Shown one piece after another: positions 19,620 through 44,275 of a DNA stretch of 48,316 nt. Under the pieces are notes generated by a model that saw only the letters and a list, made by a program, of their open reading frames with translations, searched no databases and was not told the DNA's origin. The stretch lies in NCBI GenBank assembly GCA_026388275.1, contig JAPLKB010000029.1, forward strand, positions 1 to 48,316, in the 5' to 3' direction. The position numbers were made by a program, and so were the translations under genes. The DNA is from Pseudomonadota bacterium. Its GTDB lineage: Bacteria > Desulfobacterota > Syntrophorhabdia > Syntrophorhabdales > Syntrophorhabdaceae. Position 1 is the stretch's first letter. Each line of letters opens with the position of its first letter.

Positions 19620-19800
19620 AAAAAAGCCCCCGCGAGTGCCGTGTAAACAGTATATCTTGAACCTCTCGGTTAAGTGGGCACTTTTTTGTTGCATCAGGCT
19701 TCTTGCTCAAAGGCAAGCATGCACACCGCAACAAGAGGAAGTTCCCATAAAAGAGGTGTTGGCTCAAAGTCCACCATCTATCACGTACACCGCAGGGAAT
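19620..19800 (-). ncRNA. ssrS: 6S RNA
   Basis: The interval between zapA and rny has no coding potential but shows 6S RNA features on the minus strand. A closing stem pairs CCCTGCGGTGT (from 19797) with the ACTCGCGGGG region (19627-19638), and a run of six T follows (19620-19625). Inside, segments such as GTGCATGCT, GAGCAAGAAGCCT and AACCGAGAGGTTCAAG correspond in order to conserved stretches of proteobacterial 6S RNA. Length is about 175 nt. It begins immediately after the zapA stop, the same order as in E. coli (zapA then ssrS). 6S RNA binds sigma-70 RNA polymerase as a promoter mimic. Exact ends are approximate. Confidence 0.85.
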
Positions 19801-19801
19801 T

Positions 19802-37821: not shown

Positions 37822-39630
37822 TTGAAAATCCAATGGCGCAAAGAGATGCTTCTGCTCTTGTGCCTTGTCATGGCATTATTGCTGAACGGTTGTTCGGGCG
37901 GGGGCGGCGGCGGTGATGCCTTCAGCGGAGATCCTTTCCGGTTTAGTCCTGGCATCCCTTCACAGGTTACGGGCTTGAAGGCATCTGCGGGCGACCAGGT
38001 AGTTACCTTAAACTGGACTTCTGAATATGTGGCAACGTCCTACAACATTTATTACACTGCAATACCCACTGGCGGACAGGTAACCAAGGCAAATTCTATC
38101 AGATTGAATGTTACGAGCAACTCCTATGTAATTCAGGGGCTGACGAACAACACAACCTACTACTTTATGGTAACGGCCCAGAATCACGACGGGGAGGGCT
38201 CTGCATCAACACAGGTGCTATCGACACCGGCCCCTATCTCCCAGGCCGATCTGACCGGTACATGGTATTTTCATACCCTTGTCACCGGTCCGACTGCAAA
38301 GTGGGAACGGGGAACCCTGGTTATTGACGGCAGCGGCAATGCCTCATTCACCGAGTTCCTGGACAGCACTCATTACAACCCCGCCGATGACAGTACCACA
38401 CCGGTGGCCCTGCCTCCGGATTTAAAACTTACAGTGCAGGACTCCCTCACACTGAACATGTCGGGAGCCGGCGCCTGGACAGGTTTTCACGGCTCCATGG
38501 GGTCCAGGAAGAACATGTTAGCCGGGACATGGACATATTCCATAGTGGATGGTTCGAAAGCTATCACAATATTCCAGAAGAAGAGAGCTGCCAGTGATTA
38601 TGACATTTGGGATATATCCGGTACCGGCTCCGGCCAGAATCCCCATTATCCTACATTGGCGGGGAACGGCCCGACCCAGTTTTCATATGACGCTCTCAAC
38701 AGCGGGAGCAGTATCCAGTGGGAATACAGCAATGCAAGGGTGGGGCAAAAGGGACAATTCTGGAGCCCGCCCGTATCCGCCCTCTTCCCAAGCGGGAGTG
38801 GCAGTATAAAGGATATCATCTATTGGGATTTCAGCACTCCGGCATACAAATCAGGGCCGATGTATGATGTGCTGTGGAAAGTGACCTGCTTCGGGGTGCA
38901 GCCGGACGGGATGGTGAAGGAATACGACAGCTTCGCTGCCGTAAAGGACGGGTCTCACAACGTGATTTTCACCGGCAGATTTACCGACGACAAGACCGTA
39001 ATTGTGGGGGTTTCCACGAAAAACGACATTCCCGCGGGACCCGCAAGCACAGGCGCCATCACAACTATCCCAGGTCAGTTTTACATGAGAATTCTGCAGT
39101 TGAATTTCATTCCAACAGACCAGTCGCTACCAACCTATACCCTGAACGACGCAAGCGGGAGCTATAAGTTTCACAAAATAGGAGCTGCTTATGATGGCGG
39201 AGGTATTGCACGGGCATCCTGGGCATACGGAAAGATGCAGGTTGCACTTTCGGGAGTGACGGCCTTCCCCCTTTATACTGACAGCAATTTGTTATTGGTA
39301 AACCCGGAGACTTTCACCCTTGCCTACTACCCGGATACGGGAAGCAGCGGAGAAACCTTTTCCACCTTCGCAAACTTCGTTACACCCAATACAGGCGCTG
39401 TTGACGCACACTCACGCTATTATAATCCCATCACCGGTCTGGCTTACTCCTCTGTCTGGACCTGGTGGAACGGGATTTCAAATGGGGTGCAAAGCGGTGC
39501 AGGCGTACAGAAAATTCCCATGGCCACAACCTACTACAACGAGCATGCAACGATCTCGTACAACAAAGACCTTATCGTGATGACCAGAACAGATGCTTTC
39601 GGGTACACCATGTTAATAGGATTGAAGTGA
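37822..39630 (+). CDS. Lipoprotein with fibronectin type III domain
   Basis: 602 residues. A signal peptide ends in the lipobox LLNGC (Cys 24) followed by a run of six glycines. Residues about 40-135 are an FN3 domain (PSQVTGLKASAGDQVVTLNW, NNTTYYFMVTAQNHDG). The remaining 460 residues are beta-rich with many Trp, Tyr and Gly and no recognised family. Start TTG with GGAG 8 bp upstream. It is 18 bp after the TonB receptor gene and so probably an outer-membrane surface partner of it; function otherwise unknown. Confidence 0.85.
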   Translation: MKIQWRKEMLLLLCLVMALLLNGCSGGGGGGDAFSGDPFRFSPGIPSQVTGLKASAGDQVVTLNWTSEYVATSYNIYYTAIPTGGQVTKANSIRLNVTSNSYVIQGLTNNTTYYFMVTAQNHDGEGSASTQVLSTPAPISQADLTGTWYFHTLVTGPTAKWERGTLVIDGSGNASFTEFLDSTHYNPADDSTTPVALPPDLKLTVQDSLTLNMSGAGAWTGFHGSMGSRKNMLAGTWTYSIVDGSKAITIFQKKRAASDYDIWDISGTGSGQNPHYPTLAGNGPTQFSYDALNSGSSIQWEYSNARVGQKGQFWSPPVSALFPSGSGSIKDIIYWDFSTPAYKSGPMYDVLWKVTCFGVQPDGMVKEYDSFAAVKDGSHNVIFTGRFTDDKTVIVGVSTKNDIPAGPASTGAITTIPGQFYMRILQLNFIPTDQSLPTYTLNDASGSYKFHKIGAAYDGGGIARASWAYGKMQVALSGVTAFPLYTDSNLLLVNPETFTLAYYPDTGSSGETFSTFANFVTPNTGAVDAHSRYYNPITGLAYSSVWTWWNGISNGVQSGAGVQKIPMATTYYNEHATISYNKDLIVMTRTDAFGYTMLIGLK

Positions 39631-39640
39631 ATATAACGGT

Positions 39641-40023
39641 GTTGTCAAAAGTTTAATGAAAATTTGGTGTATAGAATGAATATAGACAAACTTTTACAGG
39701 TAAATATCAGGGAGAAGAAGAAAATAGGATTAAAAATTAAGAAAAATATATTTTATTTTCCGGATTCACATAGCGTATATGTGAATCCGTGTTGAGTGGG
39801 CGGCGGCATGTCGGGGATTTTGCAGATGTGGATGGGCTGTGAGATTTGCAGGCTGGAGGCCAGGATTAAATGTTAAAAAACTGTTTTAGCCGGGTACCCA
39901 CGAGCAGCCAATTATATAGAAAGCAGCCACCTGTCACGTGGGTGGCAAACGTCGGAGGATCGCAAGGCGAAGCAGACCGCCGCAGATCAAAATCCCCGAC
40001 ATGCCGCTGACCGACCAAGAGAA
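39641..40023 (+). other. Leader-like conserved element, copy 1 (upstream of TiaS-like gene)
   Basis: This region is related to the minus strand of 41750-42059. In order it holds a 65-nt AT-rich unit starting TTGTCAAAAGTT, a purine-rich stretch GGGAGAAGAAGAAAATAGG, a 12-bp hairpin (39761-39772 with 39778-39789), and then a 20-bp perfect stem joining 39803-39822 to 39988-40007. Blocks CAGATGTGGATG, CGTCGGAGG, GCAAGGCGAA and GCCGCAGAT lie inside. It ends with GACCGACCAAGAGAA, about 60 bp before the start codon. Copy 1 carries about 90 nt of extra AT-rich sequence (39862-39949) absent from copy 2. It could be a structured 5' leader or a repeat with terminal inverted arms. Confidence 0.7.
39761..39789 (+). 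other. Hairpin shared by both leader copies
   Basis: CGGATTCACATA pairs perfectly with TATGTGAATCCG around GCGTA. The equivalent at 41905-41936 has 13 bp and a different 6-nt loop. There is no T-run after it. Confidence 0.6.
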
Positions 40024-40085
40024 CAAAATGGAAAATGCTTAATAAATAAACGAACAATACCGAATATAACCATCAGGAGGATAGC

Positions 40086-40823
40086 ATGAAAATACTGATT
40101 TCCATCGACGACACGGACAATATCGAGAGCCGTGGGACCGGTGATATTGCAGAGCTACTATGTGAGGGCATTACGGCAAAGGGCTGGGGCAAGTGCGGAC
40201 CGGTGACGCGGCACCAGCTTCTCGTCCATCCCGACATTCCCTATACGTCCCACAACAGCTCCATGTGTTTCACCGCTGAGATTCCCGAACATATGCTCGA
40301 AGCCGTAACGGACTACTGCTGCTCGGCTCTTGCCGCAGAAAGCGCTCCCGGATCAGATCCCGGGCTCTGCATTCTCACACCGGAACTGCTGAAACAACCG
40401 GAAGTGCTCATGGACTACGGACGAAAGGCAAAAAAAGTGGTCATCTCCAAGGAAGAGGCTTATGATACGGCTGCCGCTCTCGGTATACATCTTTCTGAAC
40501 ATGGCGGCACGGGCCAGGGTGTGATAGGCGCCCTCGCCGGTGCAGGTCTCCGCCTCACCGGCAACGACGGCAGGTTCAAGGGCAAATTACGCATTCCCTC
40601 CCCGAACGGAACGGCAACTGTGAGACATATCCTCGATTTCGGGATTGATGTTGTGACTACCCTTGATGGAGTAGTGCTCAATGACAGCGAGGATGTTCAT
40701 GTAGGAGAGTGGGTAAAGCGGGTGCTCTTGAACGAAAAGGCCGTTCTACTTGTAGTTCCTTCCGAAGATATTTCAGGACCGGCATGGAAAGCGTCCGGCA
40801 AAAAGATCTTCAGGAACTACTAA
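40086..40823 (+). CDS. TiaS-like protein (tRNA-Ile2 agmatinylcytidine synthetase N-terminal-type)
   Basis: 245 residues. SIDDTDNIESRGTGDIAELL near the N-terminus is the ATP-site motif of TiaS/DUF1743 proteins, and GGTGQGVIGALAGAGLRL is the second hallmark. Archaeal TiaS attaches agmatine to C34 of tRNA-Ile. This bacterial copy is about half that length and lacks the C-terminal OB-fold/zinc region. Bacteria normally use TilS instead, so a different activity is likely. Start ATG with AGGAGG. It is followed 2 bp later by a Cys-rich gene and lies between TonB receptor and ECF genes, suggesting a role tied to that transport system. Alternative: an ATP-dependent ligase acting on the imported compound. 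Confidence 0.75.
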   Translation: MKILISIDDTDNIESRGTGDIAELLCEGITAKGWGKCGPVTRHQLLVHPDIPYTSHNSSMCFTAEIPEHMLEAVTDYCCSALAAESAPGSDPGLCILTPELLKQPEVLMDYGRKAKKVVISKEEAYDTAAALGIHLSEHGGTGQGVIGALAGAGLRLTGNDGRFKGKLRIPSPNGTATVRHILDFGIDVVTTLDGVVLNDSEDVHVGEWVKRVLLNEKAVLLVVPSEDISGPAWKASGKKIFRNY

Positions 40824-41102: not shown

Positions 41103-41696
41103 TTAACTCTCAGCGATCAGGTGGTGAGCTTTAAGCCGGCGCACGATGGCAGGAACCATGAGGCCGCCGATCCCTCCAAAACCCATACCCATGAGTGTCG
41201 TCACTATTGCATGTCCTATGATAACGCTCCATTCTGCCCCGGCTATCAAATCGGGAACCACGATTGTCACAAATCGGCTTGCTGCTGCAATAACAGCCAC
41301 CAGAGCACAGGCCACGAAGTTTGTGGTCAAACGTGGATAGATGAGACGGGAACAATCGATGATGACTGCAGGCAGAATGAACCTCATTATCATGAGAGGA
41401 CCACCCTTTCCCATCCCGAGCAGGACCGCCACAATGCCTGTTACCACACCCACAATAGTTGCAGACCACATCCTCGGAACACAGGCGGCGGCAAGAAGGA
41501 GAAAAAAACACATAAAGAACATGGCATGGCCGGGAATATTAAGATGAAGCCTCAACCCTGCCCGCGTTATGACGATGAAGACAGCGCAAAAACCAAGAAA
41601 TATGGCATCCTTCAGACTGAATCTCTCGAAGAAATACCGGTCCCACCGGTTCATCCGTGATTCTTTCTTCTGTTCATTCTTTTTATTATTATCCAT
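41103..41696 (-). CDS. ECF transporter S-component-like membrane protein
   Basis: 197 residues with about five or six transmembrane helices after a 25-residue charged cytoplasmic N-terminus. The order FSLKDAIFLGFCAVFIVITR, then IPGHAMFFMCFFLLLA, then a Gly-rich GVVTGIVAVLLGMGKGG resembles substrate-binding S components of energy-coupling factor transporters. It is separated from ecfT by about 440 bp that contains leader-like copy 2, but is on the same strand. AAGGAGG lies at the right distance from the ATG at 41696. The substrate is unknown; thiamine-precursor, metal and other S families share this general look. Confidence 0.7.
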   Translation of the reverse strand: MDNNKKNEQKKESRMNRWDRYFFERFSLKDAIFLGFCAVFIVITRAGLRLHLNIPGHAMFFMCFFLLLAAACVPRMWSATIVGVVTGIVAVLLGMGKGGPLMIMRFILPAVIIDCSRLIYPRLTTNFVACALVAVIAAASRFVTIVVPDLIAGAEWSVIIGHAIVTTLMGMGFGGIGGLMVPAIVRRLKAHHLIAES

Positions 41697-41749: not shown

Positions 41750-42059
41750 TTCTCTTGGTCGGTCATCGGCATGATTGTAATGTCCATCTGCGGCGATATG
41801 TTTCACCTTGCGCCCTCCGACGTACGTTCAGTACGCCTACGGCCTGCAAGGCTTGCATCTCATCCACATCTGAGACATTGCTGCCATGCCGCTGACCACT
41901 CAACCCGGATTCACATATACACTTATGTGAATCCGGAATAAAGAAGGGGGTGAGTTTCTTTATTTTCATTTCTATTTTCTACCTCCCCCTAATTTATCTT
42001 TGTAGAGGCTTGCCTTTGCTTAATCTTCATACCAATTTATCATGTAACTTTTGACAATA
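41750..42059 (-). other. Leader-like conserved element, copy 2 (upstream of S-component-like gene)
   Basis: Read on the minus strand, this follows the same order as 39641-40023: TTGTCAAAAGTT unit, GGGGGAGGTAGAAAATAG, a 13-bp hairpin (41905-41917 with 41924-41936), TTGAGTGGTCAGCGGCATG, the blocks CAGATGTGGATG, CGTCGGAGG, GCAAGGTGAA and GCCGCAGAT, and a final GACCGACCAAGAGAA. It ends about 53 bp before the S-component start. The main stem joins 41761-41784 to 41874-41897, with 20 of 24 positions able to pair. A short frame across it (41763-41969) has no counterpart in copy 1 and is not called. Confidence 0.7.
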
Positions 42060-42131
42060 CCCCTTACTTTGTAAGAGTCTGCTTTTAATCAATCTTCAGA
42101 CTAATTATTCATTCAACTTTTTGGCAAGACC
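41998..42131 (-). repeat. Two degenerate copies of a 65-nt AT-rich unit
   Basis: Units at about 41998-42061 and 42068-42131 are direct repeats, roughly 70% alike by eye, each with a TTG-CAAAA-GTT start and an ACAAAG end (minus strand). A third copy begins copy 1 of the leader at 39641. They fill the gap directly after ecfT. Confidence 0.6.
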
Positions 42132-42134
42132 CAT

Positions 42135-42842
42135 TTATTTAATCTGTTCATCGTCCGGACTGGCTGCATCCTGCGCTGAACTGCTTCGCGGTCGGCGCCG
42201 GGTATCGAAGCCCCTTGCTTCGGCAGAAAGGGCTGCTTCTTCCGCAGTCTTGATTGCCCGGACCAAGAGTGGAATAAAGAGACAATTAAATAGGTCTTTC
42301 CAGTTCCGGGGATCAATCAGATCACGGGGCGCCACCGAAGCGCCCCTGAGTCTCTGCATGAGAGCTATCTCCTCGATTTCTCGGACAAAAAAGGGGACAA
42401 AGCGAAGACTTGTGATGATTATAAAGACAAGGCTAACCGGCATGATTTTCTTCAAACCTGCCATGATCTCGGAACTCCTCGTAGTGCGGAGGAACAGGGC
42501 ATTCGGCAGGAAAAAAAGGAGGATCTGAAAGCCTATCTTTAATCCCGGCCCCAGTCCCTTTGCCACGCCGTCCCTGATCAGGTAAAGAGCAACAATGATA
42601 GGAATCTGAATGATGAAGAGTCGAACATCGCCCCAGAATCCTGCTATTCCGAGGCGTGCGACTCCGTAAAGCACCATAATCACCGCCAGAATGGCAGGGA
42701 TAGTCCATGGTCCCCGCGCAGCTACGGCAGCGGCCGACAAAGCAAGGGCAAAGACGAGTTTCCATCCGCCGCCAAGACGATGGATCGGAGAGTCGTGATA
42801 CTGGAACTGAAAAGCATTGTGGAGCGCTCCATATTCTTTCAT
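42135..42842 (-). CDS. ecfT: ECF transporter transmembrane protein EcfT
   Basis: 235 residues with about five transmembrane helices and the two conserved cytoplasmic Ala-Arg-Gly-type motifs: MQRLRGAS near residue 168 and AEARGFDTRRR near residue 213. These coupling helices contact the ATPases. ATG overlaps the ATPase stop by 4 bp (ATGA), so they are translated together. It transmits ATP-driven movement to the S component. No start problem is evident. Confidence 0.9.
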   Translation of the reverse strand: MKEYGALHNAFQFQYHDSPIHRLGGGWKLVFALALSAAAVAARGPWTIPAILAVIMVLYGVARLGIAGFWGDVRLFIIQIPIIVALYLIRDGVAKGLGPGLKIGFQILLFFLPNALFLRTTRSSEIMAGLKKIMPVSLVFIIITSLRFVPFFVREIEEIALMQRLRGASVAPRDLIDPRNWKDLFNCLFIPLLVRAIKTAEEAALSAEARGFDTRRRPRSSSAQDAASPDDEQIK

Positions 42843-44275
42843 GTCATTGAATCCTCAGTAAGCTTTCCCGCTTCCATAAAATAGGAGCGGTCTGCCCAGG
42901 CAGGGTCAACAAGCGGATCGTGGGATGTGAGGATTACGGTACAACCCCGTTGATCACCGTAGTCTTTCAGTATGTCGAGCATCCTGTACCTGAACTCGAA
43001 TTCGAGGCCTGAGAAAGGTTCATCCAGAAGGAATATCTGCGGGTTCAGGGCTATCAGTGAAGCCAGGGTAATCCGGTGCTGCTGACCATAGCTCAGAGCG
43101 AATGGGGAACGGCTGTCAAAACCAAGCATGTCGCATAAGGCAAGAGCCTCTGTTGTGCGGGCATCTATTTGATCTGAAGTGAGGTTTTGTCTTTTTAGCG
43201 AAAAAGCCAGTTCCTCACGGACTGTGCTTTCGAATATCTGGCGCACCGGGTTTTGGAGCAGTAAGCCCACCTTTCCCCTGAGCTTTTCCGGCCTGGGTTT
43301 TATCAAACCCAGCACGTTGATAGATCCCGAATCCGGTTGCAACAGGCCGGTAATTAACTTGAACAAAGTCGATTTTCCCGCGCCGTTGTCCCCGCATATG
43401 TGGATACGCTCGCCCGCGTAAACCTTCATTGAAAGATCGACAATCACAGGTTGTCCTTTTTGCCGGGCGAAACACACCGCGTCGAGATCGACAACAGGTT
43501 CGCCGCGTGCCGCTCGATCCCGCGGGTGCGAGCCTGCATGGCCTGCCCGGTCAATCTCCCGGAAGGGTGCCTCATACGTCTCCTTCTCAATCATGCCGCT
43601 GTCGATGCAAATAAACCGGTCCACAATATCCGCATAGGGGCGCACATCGTGATCAGCCACAATGATAGTATAGGAACGTTCTTTCAAACCTCTAAGGATG
43701 GACTGGAGGGCTGTCTTTCCCCTCGCATCCAATTGGGCTGTGGGCTCATCGAGGAGAAGAATGGACGGCTCCATTGACAGGACCGCTGCGAGAGTCAAAC
43801 GGTGTTTTTCGCCGGCAGAGAGTCCTTCCACGTTTCTCGTTTCGTAGCCAATAAGCCCGACTGCTTCAAGCGCTCTGCCCACTCTTTCGTCAATCTCATG
43901 GGCCGGGATATTCAAGTTAGAGGGTCCAAAGGCTACCTCGTCCGCCACCGTCGTGGAAAGTATCTGTGAATCTGCATTCTGTAAAACAATCCCTATAGAG
44001 GGCCACGCTGCACCTCCGTCCATCCGGCACTCACCGGTAAGTATCCCCCCTTCAAGAAGACCTGAAATGGCAAGCAGCAACGTGCTCTTTCCAGACCCTG
44101 ACCGTCCTGTGAGGCAAAGGCATTCACCTTGTCTAATAGAGAGCGATATATTGTGGAGGGCATCTGTCTTTGCTCCAGGATATCGGTAGGATAAGTCAAC
44201 GACGTCCAGGCCGCCTGATGGGGCGGTATTTGCCGGTTGATTAGACATGGCATAAGACGATTCCTTCAAAGACAT
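42839..44275 (-). CDS. ECF transporter ATPase, two fused ABC domains
   Basis: 478 residues containing two complete nucleotide-binding domains. Domain 1 has Walker A GRSGSGKST, signature LSAGEKHRL and Walker B ILLLDEPT. Domain 2 has GDNGAGKST, LSYGQQHRI and IFLLDEPF, with H-loop SHD. This is the EcfA-EcfA' pair in a single chain. It starts immediately after the TonB gene stop (TGA then ATG), with AGGA as ribosome-binding site, and overlaps ecfT. It powers uptake by the ECF module. Confidence 0.93.
   Translation of the reverse strand: MSLKESSYAMSNQPANTAPSGGLDVVDLSYRYPGAKTDALHNISLSIRQGECLCLTGRSGSGKSTLLLAISGLLEGGILTGECRMDGGAAWPSIGIVLQNADSQILSTTVADEVAFGPSNLNIPAHEIDERVGRALEAVGLIGYETRNVEGLSAGEKHRLTLAAVLSMEPSILLLDEPTAQLDARGKTALQSILRGLKERSYTIIVADHDVRPYADIVDRFICIDSGMIEKETYEAPFREIDRAGHAGSHPRDRAARGEPVVDLDAVCFARQKGQPVIVDLSMKVYAGERIHICGDNGAGKSTLFKLITGLLQPDSGSINVLGLIKPRPEKLRGKVGLLLQNPVRQIFESTVREELAFSLKRQNLTSDQIDARTTEALALCDMLGFDSRSPFALSYGQQHRITLASLIALNPQIFLLDEPFSGLEFEFRYRMLDILKDYGDQRGCTVILTSHDPLVDPAWADRSYFMEAGKLTEDSMT

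Follow-up and report, generated by a model that had tools for sequence, protein, structure and literature searches.

Short, non-coding and dispersed repeats with inverted ends that fold when transcribed are familiar from several bacterial groups, including the Correia elements or NEMIS of Neisseria and the ERIC sequences of enterobacteria (PMC10969869). MITEs lying beside genes and affecting their expression are well known, and RNase III is shown to cleave Correia elements within the mtrCDE mRNA (PMC10969869). A second type of dispersed extragenic palindrome is represented by the GTAG- and CGTC-tagged REPs, which measure 20-40 bp and of which the GTAG type goes with RAYT genes (PMC3733652). 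Closer to the organism considered here, surveys of Geobacter and Pelobacter genomes have listed multi-copy palindromic intergenic sequences (PMC2700814, PMC2996986, PMC3543383), and the ‘predicted short RNA elements’ of G. metallireducens are described as multi-copy, intergenic and built around a central palindrome, GRCGTAGCGCTGCTACGCC (PMC2700814).

The element described here occurs twice in a window of 48,316 nucleotides, by which we mean the whole stretch of DNA analysed, from a member of the Syntrophorhabdaceae. Like the Correia/NEMIS and ERIC sequences, it is short and dispersed, has inverted ends and often adjoins genes. It differs from them in its 8-9 bp duplication, in its terminal inverted repeat (TIR) and in its cargo, a hairpin of ~155 nt that is also found alone, without ends, across the phylum; no sequence relation to them is claimed. 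We consider it very probable that both stretches are copies of a MITE-like transposon carrying a hairpin of ~30 nt and a core of ~155 nt, the latter drawn from a phylum-wide dispersed palindromic repeat.

The two stretches, at 39638-40023 on the plus strand (copy 1) and 41750-42061 on the minus strand (copy 2), have their blocks in common and arranged alike, with ungapped matches of 107, 89 and 63 nt that are 72-79% complementary, and they align end to end over their whole length. The similarity of the 5′ part alone (BLAST E = 7.9e-30) is far beyond chance. Both elements end in GACCGACCAAGAGAA, followed by a start codon 62 nt further on in copy 1 and 53 nt in copy 2, so that both point at a start codon from a similar distance, as the original prediction had stated. 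The places and strands that it gave to both copies are also borne out, while the end of copy 1 at 40023 was set too early, the full element spanning 39638-40061. The pair itself exists, and what had been counted as two copies proved to be two among about 60 in the genome.

The window copies belong to different subfamilies, with only ~73% identity between them in the 5′ part. BLAST within the same genome finds the nearest kin of copy 1 on contig C28 (90-92% identical), and that of copy 2 on contigs C42, C16, C30 and C39 (88-92%). They are therefore independent insertions. Genome-wide, three pairs of copies lie less than 2 kb apart against 2.0 expected by chance, and the closeness of the two window copies is what chance would give. 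The earlier argument from two functionally linked genes loses its footing here, all the more as both copies lie in the middle of what look like operons.

A complete element is about 360-425 bp, or up to ~470 bp, long, contains no gene and is bounded by GGTATTGTCAAAAGTT and its reverse complement: the TIR-bearing copies start with this sequence and, 35-75 nt past the core, finish with the reverse complement. A search for GGTATTGTCAAAAGTT that allowed two mismatches gives 55 matches, at both element ends, against four for the reversed control. A flanking repeat of 8-9 bp with at most one mismatch accompanies 8 of the 18 copies that have both ends (one of the 18 is a short element without a core), where 0.56 would be expected and none of 2000 shuffles reaches eight; the other ten show no target duplication. 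Taken together, the TIRs, the 8-9 bp target duplication and the lack of a gene therefore define a MITE-like non-autonomous transposon.

Copy 1 is a complete MITE-like element of 424 bp (39638-40061, plus strand), with a 9/9 exact target-site duplication, GAATATAAC, on both flanks. The left duplication (39629-39637) overlaps the stop codon of the upstream gene (39628-39630), and the right one (40062-40070) lies directly before the ribosome-binding site of a TiaS-like gene (40086-40823, plus strand) that is located downstream, outside the element. Its left TIR, GGTGTTGTCAAAAGTT (39638-39653), has one mismatch to the family, and its right TIR, ending in GAACAATACC (40046-40061), is degenerate. 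Copy 2 (41750-42061, minus strand), which runs from its left TIR through the core, has an exact left TIR, GGTATTGTCAAAAGTT (42046-42061), and no recognisable right one; the left ends of both window copies are clear. Directly before copy 2, in tandem and on the same strand, lies a second, diverged left end beginning with GGTCTTGCCAAAAAGTT (42062-42131), which suggests either that another element inserted there and was truncated or that the left arm was duplicated.

IS1595-family MITEs have inverted ends that start with GG and generate 8-bp duplications. The element is alike in both respects; a DDE_Tnp_IS1595 gene was sought as its partner and rejected, there being none in the same genome and the IS1595 genes of the relatives being without these ends. 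Searches around the TIR matches in the same genome and in 38 family members turned up neither an autonomous element nor a transposase bearing these ends, nor was such a partner found near solitary TIR matches. The partner may be missing from the data because the assembly is in 71 contigs, and many MITE families are without a living autonomous partner, for which reason its absence is not taken as decisive. An empty site was looked for in the genome of the same genus, which has no alignable region. One family member carries a 214-bp element (L365, on contig C26 of genome G020) with similar inverted ends, AGTATTGTCAAAAGTT and AAGTTTTGATAATACG, around a different interior.

Between the ends lie two structured parts. 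The first, hairpin 1, occupies 39760-39789 in copy 1 (CCGGATTCACAT pairing with ATGTGAATCCG) and 41905-41936 on the minus strand in copy 2; its sequence varies between copies and is wholly different between genomes, with the pairing kept. The second is the core of ~155 nt, predicted to fold as a long irregular hairpin with internal loops, which spans 39789-40023 in copy 1 (covariance model R1, 140 bits) and 41750-41906 on the minus strand in copy 2 (R1, 157 bits). Copy 1 carries at its hairpin tip an extra piece of ~88 nt (about 39861-39948) that copy 2 is without, and its hairpin has a predicted energy of -143 kcal/mol. The same tip piece, with a hairpin of its own (ACCCACG...CGTGGGT), is common to copy 1 and the copies at C28:56901, C28:95404 and C39:3397, and the copies at C12:83148 and C10:75686 share a different insertion, a C-rich/G-rich palindrome resembling CCCTCTCC...GGAGAGGG; the tip accepts insertions. 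A large open reading frame inserted there, as in group II introns, was looked for and not found, the 5′ and 3′ halves always lying within a few hundred bases of each other where both exist. A short coding frame in the core (with an M.. CxxC reading) was likewise discarded, since many copies interrupt it with stops and the conservation is accounted for by base-pairing.

The pairing is supported by covariation. Within the genome, compensatory double changes occur in 22 of the 53 predicted pairs. When 36 cores from several genera are aligned without reference to structure, 94.4% of cells are paired against 32-44% when the partner is slid by one to three columns, a comparison that favours the unslid pairing because this alignment also supplied the structure; double changes occur in 27 of the 37 pairs, a count well above both controls, and shuffles never reach the observed values. 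Non-Watson-Crick cells comprise 213 G-U against 5 A-C, a count biased by the choice of pairs under an RNA rule that allows G-U; among the 17 pairs that show two or more Watson-Crick types the figures are 94 against 3, and this count, like the strand comparison, is less biased. The plus strand gives the more stable fold in 30 of 30 copies. This excess of G-U over A-C and the better folding of the plus strand imply selection acting on that strand as a single strand, and the selected molecule is most simply read as RNA, single-stranded DNA being also possible.

With each window copy as query, BLAST finds dozens more copies on both strands of the genome (3.53 Mb in 71 contigs). A 16-base pattern from the 3′ end gives 41 matches with up to two mismatches and its reversed control one, and a covariance model built from 30 copies recovers about 57 plus-strand copies, reverse-strand rows in its output being a shadow of the palindrome. 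The analysis covered 60 places, three of them partial, and only one copy among these ~60 overlaps a called gene. The genes downstream are unrelated, with phosphoglucomutase-like, CoA-transferase, carbonic anhydrase-like, DNA ligase-like, pyruvate kinase-like and ParB-like products, among others, as read by eye from their sequences. The gene calls come from a simple home-made scorer, so that some start positions are approximate.

Ends and core are separable parts. About 25 core copies in the genome have no recognisable TIR, and one element of 143 bp (C18:17244-17386, locus L306) has the same TIRs and arms with no hairpins and no core, which means that the TIR ends can exist without the core; it precedes a GTG start in the same orientation, and it could be the transposon in its empty form or a derivative that arose by deletion. 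In the TIR-bearing copies, it looks as if either a transposon took up the core or a core was lodged between such ends.

Outside this genome, model R1 detects multi-copy cores in 14 of 60 relatives, in a patchy pattern, and a broader model, R2, has core matches in 86 of 297 phylum genomes, representing 57 of 199 genera, with only ten candidates per genome scored, so that the copy numbers there are lower bounds. Exact-pattern scans give 23 matches in genome contigs, mostly in scattered taxa and including two contigs of Syntrophus sp. SW.3.55, and 81 in viral contigs, the level that chance gives for 16 bases. Neither the window copies nor the phylum homologues match Rfam above the gathering score, and nothing relevant appears at E-values up to 5. 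The core family was probably seen in part in Geobacter, because GGCGTAGCAGCGCTACGCC, the reverse complement of the G. metallireducens palindrome GRCGTAGCGCTGCTACGCC, is the tip of L335, a phylum homologue of the core. The ‘predicted short RNA elements’ of that species probably belong to the same family, an identity that rests on 19 nt of sequence. The window copies differ in that this palindrome is absent from them, their tip being GGCGTACTGAACGTACGTC or an insertion, and the main text of the G. metallireducens report describes no transposon ends (PMC2700814). Distant homologues in other families of the phylum (L320-L345) are near-symmetric palindromes flanked by A- and T-tracts, often at or over a stop codon, and give the impression, from their sequences, of looking like bidirectional terminators. 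No description of the structured core inside transposon ends was found in the openly licensed literature searched.

The genes around the window copies place both of them within apparent operons, a structure inferred from gene order alone. The TiaS-like gene downstream of copy 1 resembles TiaS weakly in its first 157 residues (37 bits in NCBIfam at E = 1.5e-9, where the cut-off is 600; about E = 7e-4 against PDB TiaS chains). If the element and one duplication are taken out, the distance from the upstream stop codon to the start of this gene is 22 nt with the ribosome-binding site in between, a typical operon gap. Copy 2 separates the gene for the T component (42135-42842, CbiQ family) from that for the putative S component (41103-41696, minus strand) of an ECF transporter, whose TonB, ATPase (42839-44275), T and S genes share one direction. 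The 197-aa protein encoded at 41103-41696 is matched by neither Pfam nor NCBIfam at normal thresholds and is a putative S component by its place beside the T component and the ECF ATPase. Neither copy, then, stands at the start of an apparent transcription unit. The window also contains a 6S RNA gene (19623-19801, minus strand; Rfam RF00013, 103.7 bits).

Under the MITE-like reading, a transposase acting in trans, which the length of the target duplication suggests to be of the DDE type, would have inserted the copies independently, and copy 1 would have entered the 22-nt gap of an apparent operon, after a stop codon and ahead of the next gene's ribosome-binding site. The inserted element would presumably be transcribed with the host mRNA, in which its plus strand would fold into the long hairpin and might, by analogy with the Correia elements, offer a site for RNase III.

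A further point for this account to accommodate is orientation. In co-directional gaps of the genome, 21 TIR-bearing copies point towards the downstream start codon against 5 that do not (p = 0.0025), most of them 42-96 nt from it, and such a bias is not predicted by neutral insertion of an element with symmetric ends. The copies without TIRs divide 11 against 9, and the two kinds pooled give a weaker bias of 32 against 14; the split by TIR was made after the data were seen. Some copies also lie antisense behind stop codons. The relatives show no orientation bias in either of two counts (9 against 12 and 6 against 8). Where cores without TIRs are antisense to the gene at their 3′ end, its stop codon is 19-58 nt away in nine of nine cases and much closer than the gene at their 5′ end, as at C40:4707, C16:49917, C8:35231 and C11:68250. 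For the TIR-bearing copies, the bias may reflect tolerance of insertions, because an A-rich, unstructured right arm beside the ribosome-binding site would harm translation less than the reverse arrangement.

The alternative that survives best gives the bias a function: the mobile element would have been recruited as a portable post-transcriptional control, a 5′-UTR hairpin processed or bound by a shared factor such as RNase III, through which many unrelated genes would be adjusted jointly. We regard this as unlikely, although the 21-to-5 preference at a distance of mostly 42-96 nt, the strand-specific RNA structure under selection and the precedent of RNase III cleavage of Correia elements in the mtrCDE mRNA (PMC10969869) all speak for it. 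Against it, the bias emerged after the split by TIR and weakens on pooling, and the core need not be its cause, because the core-less element at C18:17244-17386 also sits before a start codon, in the same orientation. In its broadest form, in which a transposon family captured a phylum-wide structured RNA and turned it into a portable 5′-UTR module before some 28 unrelated genes, all responding to a common processing or binding factor, the proposal is similarly doubtful. A post-transcriptional effect of the TIR-bearing copies on the downstream gene may nonetheless occur, a possibility kept alive by their RNA-like character and non-random orientation.

Less probable still is a REP-type repeat that lacks true terminal repeats and owes its movement to a RAYT (TnpA-REP) tyrosine transposase. 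The element is palindromic, dispersed, extragenic and multi-copy like the GTAG and CGTC REPs, its hairpin is strand-specific and the core without TIRs is randomly oriented, all as such a repeat would be. RAYT-type single-strand transposition gives no 8-9 bp duplications, whereas the TIR-bearing copies have them, and the genome has no Y1_Tnp (PF01797) gene. The element is also far longer than a REP, the core of ~155 nt alone dwarfing their 20-40 nt (PMC3733652).

A dedicated riboswitch or structured leader controlling the TiaS-like and ECF S-component genes and sensing the imported compound, the regulatory reading that the original prediction favoured, is the least credible of all: the shared orientation and similar distance to both start codons and the conserved plus-strand RNA structure with internal loops fit it, but ~60 copies lie before unrelated genes and some antisense behind stop codons, both window copies are flanked by the genes of apparent operons, the family has TIRs and target duplications, Rfam gives no match and orientation is random in the relatives. 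The original prediction had also offered a mobile repeat, the reading upheld by the ~60 copies, the TIRs, the target-site duplications and the unrelated neighbours. It had also named many copies, unrelated genes and random orientation as findings that would tell against regulation; the first two were found, and the third was not for the TIR-bearing copies (21 against 5). The riboswitch reading for the window copies should be dropped.

The window element is a genuine mobile repeat of an ordinary kind with an unusual structured cargo, and repeated ‘leaders’ beside two transport-related genes are, as a caution, not to be read as a riboswitch. The composite of transposon ends around an RNA core that stands alone across the phylum is new to the papers searched. 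The core itself is a large, covarying, strand-specific structure outside Rfam, and a covariance model for it would annotate many intergenic regions of the genomes concerned. If the transposon had indeed captured the RNA as a regulatory module, insertions would be kept mainly in one orientation just before start codons, and the orientation bias raises the testable question of whether an RNA structure spread by transposition has become a shared regulatory 5′ UTR.
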